A stretch of DNA of 64,000 nt from Pseudomonadota bacterium (lineage in GTDB: Bacteria > Chloroflexota > UBA5177 > JAJPKF01), in the NCBI GenBank assembly GCA_021323865.1, contig JAJPKF010000006.1, positions 1-64,000 on the forward strand, read 5' to 3'. Positions within the stretch are counted from its first letter, which is position 1. Every line of letters starts with the position of its first letter. Positions 19,323 through 21,692 of this stretch are shown here, piece by piece. The notes under the pieces are model-generated. The model saw nothing but the letters and a program-made list of their open reading frames with translations, made no database searches and had not been told where the DNA came from. Both the position numbers and the translations under genes were made by a program.

Positions 19323-20141
19323 GTGGAACTCTGGCGCGAACTCCCGTTTGGCGTTGGCCGAGCCGAACATCATCTTCGGCTGACCGAGTCACTCTTCGCG
19401 GACGTCGCGAGAGCCGGAGCCGACCTATGGTGGCACCGATGCTCGGATCGGGTGATCCTCGTCGGTCCCGGAGTAGCCAAGCAGCTGGAGCGCCATGGTG
19501 CGCAGCCGGCTCTGCCGGTTCTGACCAGACACAGCGGTGGAGGGGCGGTGTTGACCGGACCGGGGCTGCTCTGTCTCGACGTTGCCTTGCCGCCCTCATC
19601 GCGGCTGGTCAGCCGGGACGTTGTGGAAGATTACCGGTGGCTGGGAGAAGTTTGGGCCGGGACGCTTCAGGCATTGGGCGTTGACGCGCAGGTCCTCTGC
19701 CCTTCCGATGCTCGGGCATTGACCAGAACGAGCGAGCTGCCCGAGCGACTGGCGGCACTGGCCTGCTTCGGCGCCTTCTCCCCCTACGAGGTAGCGGTGC
19801 AGGGTCGAAAGATCGTGGGATTGTCCCAGGTACGCCGCTCGCACGGCGTACTTCTGGCTTCTGCGGTGCATCTCGATGAGGAGCCGCACGCGCTGGTGGC
19901 GGCACTTGGGCTGCCAAAAAGTGATGAGATGCGGCTCGCCAATCACCTGGAGGCCACCGCCATCTCACTTCAGGAGGCGGCTCCAGCTGCTGGGACGGTG
20001 GACGCCGTCCAGGCCGCCCTCCGGCGAACCCTGCGGTCCTCTCTCGGCGTTGATCTCAGGCCGAGGCCGTGGCCGGAGGAAACTCCGGCTCAGCCGGAAG
20101 CGTTGCGGGCCGCCGTCTCCACCCGGCGAGAGGCCATATAG
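19323..20141 (+). CDS. Lipoate-protein ligase A/octanoyltransferase-like protein
   Basis: 272-residue member of the biotin/lipoate ligase fold (BPL_LplA_LipB). Family motifs seen: RHSGGGAVLTGPGLLCLDVAL (lipoyl-binding loop) and the lysine region FSPYEVAVQGRKIVGLSQVRR. It should attach octanoate or lipoate to 2-oxoacid dehydrogenase or GcvH domains. There is no accessory C-terminal domain of the E. coli LplA type. GTG start at 19323 is 3 nt after the oxidase stop. The last 52 nt overlap the convergent sufU gene, an unusually long tail-to-tail overlap. Confidence 0.82.
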   Translation: MELWRELPFGVGRAEHHLRLTESLFADVARAGADLWWHRCSDRVILVGPGVAKQLERHGAQPALPVLTRHSGGGAVLTGPGLLCLDVALPPSSRLVSRDVVEDYRWLGEVWAGTLQALGVDAQVLCPSDARALTRTSELPERLAALACFGAFSPYEVAVQGRKIVGLSQVRRSHGVLLASAVHLDEEPHALVAALGLPKSDEMRLANHLEATAISLQEAAPAAGTVDAVQAALRRTLRSSLGVDLRPRPWPEETPAQPEALRAAVSTRREAI

Positions 20142-20512
20142 TCGTCGACTGCCGCTTTAGTGGTAGATAACGCCAGCGTGGCACAGCGAGTCCGGCTCGC
20201 CACGACATCGCGGCCCATCTCCTCGACGACGTTCTCGTAGGACATGGCCTTCACATCCTCGAGTGACTTGCCGGCCAGGGTCTCGGTGAGCATGGAGGCC
20301 CCCGCCTGGCTGATGGTGCAGCCCTCGCCCTGGAAGGCAGCGTCGAGGATCACACCTTCCGGGTCGAGCTTGAGGTACATGACGATCAGATCGCCACATC
20401 CAGGGTTTCCACCGCTGGCCTCGACGTCCGCATCCTCGATCTTGCGCCGATTTCGCGGGTTATCGTGATGATCGAGGATGATCTCGATATAGTCCTGTCG
20501 CGAGAGCTCCAC
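20090..20512 (-). CDS. sufU: Iron-sulfur cluster scaffold (SufU/NifU N-terminal type)
   Basis: 140-residue SufU-type protein that accepts persulfide sulfur and takes part in Fe-S assembly. It has LSRQDYIEIILDHHDNPRNRRKI at the start and the three conserved cysteines in GNPGCGD, GEGCTISQA and RTRCATLAL. The SufU-type insertion between the second and third Cys is present (SLEDVKAMSYENVVEEMG). GTG start at 20512 is one nucleotide after the sulfurtransferase stop, so both are on one transcript, controlled by the structured leader at 21451-21692. Confidence 0.92.
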   Translation of the reverse strand: MELSRQDYIEIILDHHDNPRNRRKIEDADVEASGGNPGCGDLIVMYLKLDPEGVILDAAFQGEGCTISQAGASMLTETLAGKSLEDVKAMSYENVVEEMGRDVVASRTRCATLALSTTKAAVDDYMASRRVETAARNASG

Positions 20513-20513
20513 G

Positions 20514-21395
20514 CTACTTCTCGATCGGTGCTCCCACGAGATTGCCCCACTCGGTCCATGAACCGTCGTAGTTCTTGACGTTGGGGTAGCCGAGCAGGTA
20601 CTTGAGCACGAACCAGGTGTGGGAGGACCGCTCGCCGATCCGACAGTAGGAGATGACCGGCTGCTCGGGCTCGATCTGGTTCCGCTCTCGGTAAATCTGC
20701 TCCAGCTCCGAGCGGTTCTTGAACGTGCCGTCCTCGGCGTTCGCGGCCGTTCCCCACGGAATGCTCTTGGCAGTCGGTATATGACCGCCCCGCTGGGCCC
20801 CCTCTTGTGGATAGTCGACCATGTGGAGAAGCTCGCCCGAGTACTCCCCAGGGGAACGGACGTCGATCAGTGGCTGATGCTCTTCCAACTGCCGCTCCAC
20901 GTCACGTCGGAAAGCCCGGATCGCGAGGTCGGGCCCTGAAGCCGTATAGGTCGTGGGCGCATGCTGCGGCACCTCCCGCGACCATTGGCGCCCCTCCTTC
21001 TCCCACTTGGTGCGTCCGCCGTCCATCACCCGAACGTCGCGGTGGCCGAACATCTTGAAGAGCCAGAACGTGTAGGTGGCATACCAGTTGTTCTTGTCAC
21101 CGTAGAGCACAACGGTGGTCTCGTTGGCGATCCCGTGCTGGGACATCAGGCGCTCAAACCCTTCCTTGTCCAGGAAGTCCCGCCGGATGGGGTCCTGCAG
21201 ATCGGTGTGCCAGTCGAGCTTGATTGCGCCTGGGATATGACCCACGTCATAGAGCAGCACATCTTCGTCTGCCTCGACCAGCCGCACGTTGGCATTGTCG
21301 AGGTTCTCACTGACCCACTCGGTCGAGACGAGAACCTCAGGGTGCTCATACTCGCCGAACTTGGGGTCGGCGGCGGGGGCCGTGGCTTCGACCAT
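20514..21395 (-). CDS. Tandem-rhodanese sulfurtransferase (thiosulfate/mercaptopyruvate type)
   Basis: 293-residue protein of two rhodanese domains. The N-terminal domain (about 20-145) is inactive-like; the C-terminal domain carries the active-site Cys in [15 protein letters not shown] (about residue 248). The loop CRIGERS is typical of actinobacterial CysA-type thiosulfate sulfurtransferases. It forms an enzyme persulfide and probably feeds the adjacent SufU. The start ATG at 21395 has AGGAGG 8 nt upstream. The gene is preceded by an intrinsic terminator only about 55 nt away, which implies conditional readthrough. Confidence 0.92.
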
Positions 21396-21450: not shown

Positions 21451-21484
21451 TGGTAAAGGAAAGGGGCCGCAATTACGCGGCCCC
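21451..21484 (-). terminator. Intrinsic terminator upstream of the sulfurtransferase gene
   Basis: On the minus strand an 8-bp perfect GC-rich stem, GGGGCCGC/GCGGCCCC with loop GTAATT (complement of 21463-21484), is followed directly by TTTCCTTT (complement of 21455-21462). It stands between the leader promoter and the sulfurtransferase start, so it would end transcription prematurely unless overcome. Confidence 0.75.
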
Positions 21485-21686
21485 GCGCATTGTTACTTGC
21501 GCTAGATGTTTGGGCTGGATACCCAGCTCCTCGTGAATGTTTGGAGCTATTTTTTGTGGCGGCAAGCAAACCTGCCGTCACGGGCCTGCCCCGGCATCGC
21601 CGGGGCCTTATCTTCCAGCCCGGTATTCTCCTAAGACGACGAAAGCTTCCATCTCAAAGCCTCCTTTCAAAGGGTGGCTTCACCTG
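21485..21686 (-). promoter_or_regulatory. Structured leader with competing hairpins (attenuator candidate)
   Basis: The leader between promoter and terminator has several pairings. There is an 8-bp hairpin GCCCCGGC/GCCGGGGC at 21588-21606, starting right after the leader ORF stop. A hairpin GCTGG/CCAGC lies at about 21514-21527. Two alternatives exclude the latter: AGCTCC with GGAGCT (12-nt loop), and GGGCTGG inside the leader ORF (complement of 21615-21621) with CCAGCCC (complement of 21512-21518). A CGGCA/TGCCG hairpin lies at about 21559-21576. Such mutually exclusive structures before a terminator are typical of riboswitches or translational attenuators. No known riboswitch class was recognised. 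Confidence 0.55.
21608..21652 (-). CDS. 14-residue leader peptide
   Basis: Short ORF encoding MEAFVVLGEYRAGR and ending in TAA. An ideal Shine-Dalgarno site, GAAAGGAGG (complement of 21660-21668), stands 7 nt before the ATG, stronger than those of most genes here. The stop lies 1 nt before an 8-bp hairpin, and the 3' part of the ORF can pair with downstream leader sequence. There is no run of a single amino acid codon (no Cys or Met beyond the start), so the sensed signal is not obvious. Confidence 0.6.
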   Translation of the reverse strand: MEAFVVLGEYRAGR

Positions 21687-21692
21687 ATTATA
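21687..21692 (-). promoter_or_regulatory. Consensus -10 box of the sulfurtransferase leader
   Basis: On the minus strand a perfect TATAAT (complement of 21687-21692) stands about 20 nt upstream of the leader Shine-Dalgarno site. The hexamer at the -35 position (GCAATT, 17-nt spacer) is weak. The predicted start near 21680 gives a roughly 225-nt leader RNA ending at the terminator. Confidence 0.55.

Follow-up and report, generated by a model that had tools for sequence, protein, structure and literature searches.

A conserved RNA with an apparently translated micro-ORF in uncultivated Chloroflexota, probably a stand-alone transcript rather than a dedicated sulfurtransferase-sufU attenuator

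Some small RNAs of bacteria have a dual function, as is the case for SgrS/SgrT and SR1/SR1P. This class of RNAs has been reviewed (PMC7430163, PMC10339803). Among arrest peptides, SecM carries the motif 163-RAG-165, and SecM/RAPP-like peptides need a proline after the RAG (PMC10951299, PMC10987492). Among actinobacteria, Cys-rich leader peptides are found as a uORF before the sulfurtransferase gene cysA2 (PMC4633059) and at cys operons (PMC1262725). The element described here lies in a 64,000-nucleotide stretch of contig JAJPKF010000006.1 (the window), from a 2.96-Mb genome of Chloroflexota (G000). It would share with the dual-function small RNAs a discrete transcript, with its own promoter, a short ORF led by a Shine-Dalgarno site, a structured 3′ part, and an intrinsic terminator. 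The likeness is one of architecture; a target and a role for the peptide are presumed here, and the element differs in the gap between the stop codon and a stable hairpin, which is invariantly 1 nt.

In the window, the element starts with the −10 element TATAAT (21687–21692, on the minus strand like all features given here), with a 17-nt spacer to a weak −35 element, GCAATT. Because this −35 is poor, a scan for consensus sigma-70 promoters reported no complete promoter at the window element. The Shine-Dalgarno site AAAGGAGG (21660–21667, with AGGAGG at 21665–21660) precedes a micro-ORF of 14 codons, MEAFVVLGEYRAGR-stop (21608–21652), and a GC hairpin of 8 bp, H1 (21588–21606), begins directly behind its stop. 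Downstream are hairpin H2 (21560–21577), hairpin A (21525–21548) with its 12-nt loop, the local hairpin H4, CUGG-GUAU-CCAG (21515–21526), and hairpin H5, GCGC...GCGC (21485–21502). The latter stacks on an intrinsic terminator (21455–21484) with a 9-bp stem (21484–21463) and the tail TTTCCTTT, an interrupted U-tract. A previous sequence-only reading of this DNA had listed the TATAAT, the Shine-Dalgarno site, the 14-codon ORF, the hairpin after its stop, and a terminator before a sulfurtransferase gene, all of which are present. The terminator stands ~60 nt upstream of the ATG, at 21395, of a gene coding for a thiosulfate/3-mercaptopyruvate-type sulfurtransferase with two rhodanese domains (20514–21395), and SufU is encoded by the second gene of this operon (20090–20512; TIGR01994 above cut-off). 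The divergent upstream neighbor is a type I phosphodiesterase gene. These features are more than chance: the fold of the 251-nt leader is far more stable than those of dinucleotide shuffles (z-score −6.4), and a short ORF led by AGGAGG arises in 58 of 5,000 dinucleotide shuffles of the intergenic region. Most decisive is the recurrence of the ORF, the Shine-Dalgarno site, the hairpins, and the terminator in three other genera.

The comparison included five other genomes of the order and one more of the class. A plain DNA similarity search of the class genomes with the leader gave many chance matches and no homolog, and a structure model alone succeeded. The covariance model R1, made from the window core alone (21509–21624), has its best matches in the class at a single site per genome in G005 (E = 0.0013), G001 (0.43), and G002 (0.66), which represent three further genera within the order. 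These E-values are by themselves weak evidence. Homology is proven by the features that recur outside the modelled piece, as at all three sites the opening half of the ORF returns behind its Shine-Dalgarno site, followed by the GCGC hairpins and the terminator with its U-tract, in the same order and with the same spacing. The homologous terminators follow the pattern GGGGYCGC...GCGGCCCC plus a U-tract. A second model, R2, built from the four copies and thus giving scores that are not independent at these sites, reaches 137–158 bits at the four sites only and finds nothing credible elsewhere in 400 genomes of the phylum. The sole other R2 match below E = 1e-5 in these genomes (33 bits, in G104) was rejected, as it lies within a histidine-kinase gene, and the weaker R1 and R2 matches in other genomes were taken as chance, their flanks being devoid of any conserved feature. 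The pattern formed by a Shine-Dalgarno site and V[M/L]G[Q/E]xRAGx-stop, derived from the four copies, occurs in exactly these four places in the 400 genomes, where the reversed pattern has one match; the hairpin A pattern is there unique to G001, G002, and G005. The viral contigs scanned contain no match. No copy was found in G003, G004, and G006, three incomplete MAGs whose incompleteness may partly account for the absence; in G003 the 3′ flank of metH was read, and the element is not there. At least four genera of this uncultivated order of Chloroflexota thus keep the element, each genome having a single copy.

The four copies encode peptides of 11–14 residues: besides that of the window, which diverges in its N-terminal half, these are MAVMGQLRAGW (G005), MAVMGQTRAGC (G001), and VAVMGQSRAGR (G002, with a GTG start). 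Over the last ten codons, the pairwise differences among the four copies are 18/6/35 at the first, second, and third codon positions, and 43 pairs of residues are identical where 25.0 are expected from shuffles of the alignment columns (p = 5e-5). The conserved arginine is encoded by CGT, AGG, CGA, or CGG. The distribution of differences over codon positions and the synonymous arginine codons are evolutionary evidence that the micro-ORF is translated, as one would expect of a dual-function small RNA. Around it, (A)GGAGGCTT is kept in the Shine-Dalgarno site of all four homologs, and in every copy a gap of exactly 1 nt separates the stop codon from H1, in which GCCCC/GGGGC is invariant. H2 is variable and absent from G001. 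The stem of hairpin A, GCUCC...GGAGC, is invariant, its loop has a conserved CAUU, and the terminator stem is almost invariant. The sequence-only reading had proposed a covariance search of relatives for conservation of ORF and helices, and both were recovered in this way. The helix equivalent to H4 has an A-U/G-C double change among the relatives. Hairpin A and the terminator stem vary too little among the four copies to offer much covariation.

Putative promoters precede the Shine-Dalgarno site in G002 (TTGACA-17-GAGAAT) and G001 (TTGACT-17-AACAAT), and another, TTGATT-17-TTCAAT, can be read by eye in G005. Terminators are predicted in all four copies, with clean tails in G001, G002, and G005 (T7, AT6, and ATTCT5, respectively); only the −10 element of the window promoter is good. 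The genomic contexts differ. The G002 element has on one side a divergent phosphodiesterase gene, whose product is 32% identical to that of the window, and on the other a convergent metH, and in G001 the element stands between an MFS gene and a convergent metH; neither genome has an adjacent sense gene downstream of it. In G002, H5 is followed on the opposite strand by a T-run (L163:1622–1637) and looks in addition like a terminator of the convergent metH. In G005, 555 nt separate the terminator from the start of metE downstream. We did not find metH in G000 and G005, and the metE of G000 is located elsewhere, away from the element. The 3′ neighbors belong to sulfur or methionine metabolism in all four genomes (metH, metH, metE, and sulfurtransferase-sufU). 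This agreement is suggestive, but it was noticed after the fact, and the neighbors vary in orientation and distance. Such neighbors could point to a role in cis, and this counts against reading the element as stand-alone.

The sequence-only reading had proposed that the element controls the sulfurtransferase-sufU operon, the position of the ribosome on the 14-codon ORF, or a ligand, deciding between termination and readthrough. A leader ORF followed by a terminator at ~60 nt from the gene, with no obvious other promoter between terminator and ATG when the window is read by eye, is what one would expect of such an attenuator, and other Chloroflexota do have true Cys-leader attenuators in front of their homolog of the gene. 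However, when ribosomes are modelled as simple-block footprints, at equilibrium and without co-transcriptional kinetics, the probability of the terminator hairpin is at least 0.95 in every ribosome state in all four copies and 1.0 in the window. No antiterminator competes with it in any modelled state of any copy, and the pairing between the H1 arm and the terminator arm has probability 0.0. The ORF also has no amino-acid run. In the relatives, moreover, the homologous elements and this operon lie apart: the sulfurtransferase-sufU pair is present in G002 and G005 but has no copy of the element in front of it, and the leader is absent from the sulfurtransferase upstream regions examined in relatives of the order. 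A ribosome-dependent decision on readthrough is therefore not borne out by the models, nor does the element always precede rhodanese/sufU, this context being found in the window genome only. Dedicated attenuation in cis is, in our judgment, quite unlikely.

Regulation of the sulfur and methionine neighbors at large, through readthrough antisense to metH in G001 and G002 and sense into metE in G005 or the sulfurtransferase gene in G000, would give meaning to the shared 3′ neighbors, but it has to accommodate their varying orientation and distance, terminators that look complete in G001, G002, and G005, and, for metE, a separate promoter that is plausible by eye. We hold it to be very unlikely. 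The transcript might instead be simply a short mRNA, its peptide of 11–14 residues being the functional molecule and its hairpins a protective 3′ end. Conservation of the peptide with synonymous third positions, the excellent Shine-Dalgarno site, and the stability of the 3′ hairpins agree with this, yet hairpin A and the terminator stem show a nucleotide conservation beyond what an ordinary 3′ end would require, and the N-terminal half of the peptide is not maintained in the window copy; this leaves the proposal rather doubtful. It is distinctly unlikely that the element is a free-standing sensor of the nascent chain, in which a pause at RAG-x-stop upon a sulfur-related or translational signal would hold H1 open and switch hairpin A of an untethered RNA. 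The best explanation, to which we give moderate confidence, is a stand-alone transcript acting as a dual-function or translation-gated small RNA, and not as an attenuator dedicated to sulfurtransferase-sufU. That the RNA is stand-alone, translated, and conserved is very probable from the comparison of the four copies; that translation gates its activity is a tentative proposal drawn from modelled folds.

As a stand-alone, translation-gated RNA, the element would be a transcription unit of ~225–235 nt, with a promoter, a strong Shine-Dalgarno site, an ORF of 11–14 codons ending in RAG-x-stop, a structured 3′ part, and a terminator. Because a single nucleotide lies between the stop codon and H1 in all copies, a ribosome at the last codons would keep this hairpin open. 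The same ribosome may also undo the pairing of the ORF end with the A/H4 region that is predicted in three of the four copies and missing in G005. In the window, ORF GGGCTGG is complementary to CCAGCCC (21518–21512), and in the predicted fold the segment UCCAGCCC (21512–21519) pairs with ORF bases 21621–21614 in preference to the alternative hairpin H4. The sequence-only reading had identified this pairing, which stands for the window fold but is not conserved in G005. With the RAG of the modelled ribosome in the P site, the window fold loses about eight pairs that link the ORF end to the A/H4 region, and the probability of hairpin A rises from 0.16–0.18 to 0.93–0.96 in G001 and G002; G005 displays neither the rise nor the loss. 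Hairpin A would thus be best presented while the micro-ORF is translated. In the regions examined, the starts of metH, metE, and the sulfurtransferase gene, no notable duplex with the RNA was predicted. In the window genome, the element may have come to sit ~60 nt before the sulfurtransferase gene and its U-tract may have weakened. As this tract is degraded, partial readthrough is possible there, and leaky termination would probably feed sulfurtransferase-sufU as a local consequence.

The element does not fit the other described systems. It resembles SecM/RAPP-like arrest peptides in that a short regulatory ORF closes with a conserved C-terminus of the type G-x-x-RAG, but the proline after RAG is absent in all copies (RAGR, RAGW, RAGR, and RAGC), there is no FxxxxWI segment, the peptide is far shorter, and no sec or yidC genes lie downstream; stalling would be hypothetical. 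With the actinobacterial Cys leaders it shares the position of a short ORF upstream of a sulfurtransferase gene, but the window peptide has no cysteine, and its homologs are encoded away from sulfurtransferase genes. A single cysteine occurs among the peptides, in the G001 copy, and none has an amino-acid run. A run of Cys codons, an antiterminator, and a consistent position before a biosynthetic gene, all typical of classical Cys attenuators, are missing, in agreement with the sequence-only reading, which had set that class aside and had recognized no known riboswitch. Like structured RNAs of Rfam, the element is a compact multi-hairpin RNA, but scans of the window, G002, and G005 copies with release 15 give no family at threshold, the near-misses being well below gathering scores. 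Nor is the 5′ UTR position of a riboswitch found in most genomes, as it is in the window genome alone that a gene follows the element closely. 6S RNA was rejected, RF00013 having no match in the genome of the window, and so was tmRNA, as ARAGORN finds none at the four sites. In appearance, the element is a leader peptide module whose conservation is not tied to a downstream gene.

The upstream regions of sulfurtransferase genes in other Chloroflexota contain leaders of their own. In several genomes, a Cys-rich short ORF and then an intrinsic terminator directly precede the gene (L003, L121, L024, L049, and also L043 and L087). By strict criteria this is found in 4 of 148 regions (L003, L024, L049, and L121), where 0.025 are expected from shuffles. 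Both sulfurtransferase paralogs of G001 have Cys-rich leader peptides, MSGPAACCCTAGRCGPLQCP and MNCPAIGQTCACCCCRPAGPGWCRSMT (L003, with its ORF about 150–60 nt before the gene, and L121 are of this genome). These Cys-rich leaders are an element separate from the window RNA. Within one family (L138, L139, L145, L146, L147, and L153), a conserved leader-like peptide, WPAQRLxHxPxCFCS-stop, is found about 160–90 nt before the gene, with no NCBIfam match for the two copies tested. A second type of leader peptide is seen in Anaerolineae (L024 and L042), as similar short ORFs ending in CLCL[RW]RGS-stop ~210 nt upstream. Near the sulfurtransferase promoter of L007, L009, L010, L012, L015, L018, L127, and L136, palindromes or half-sites resembling TTGAC...GTCAA recur, and they may be a transcription-factor site for sulfur genes.

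The Cys-rich leaders before sulfurtransferase genes of Chloroflexota extend a regulation that has been proposed in mycobacteria. For the window element, a leader ORF and a terminator in one genome were insufficient for inferring attenuation in cis, as the comparative context indicates the opposite. If the small transcript is confirmed, these uncultivated Chloroflexota would provide a compact system, of 11 codons and ~150 nt, for asking whether a trans-acting RNA can be controlled by the translation of a micro-ORF.
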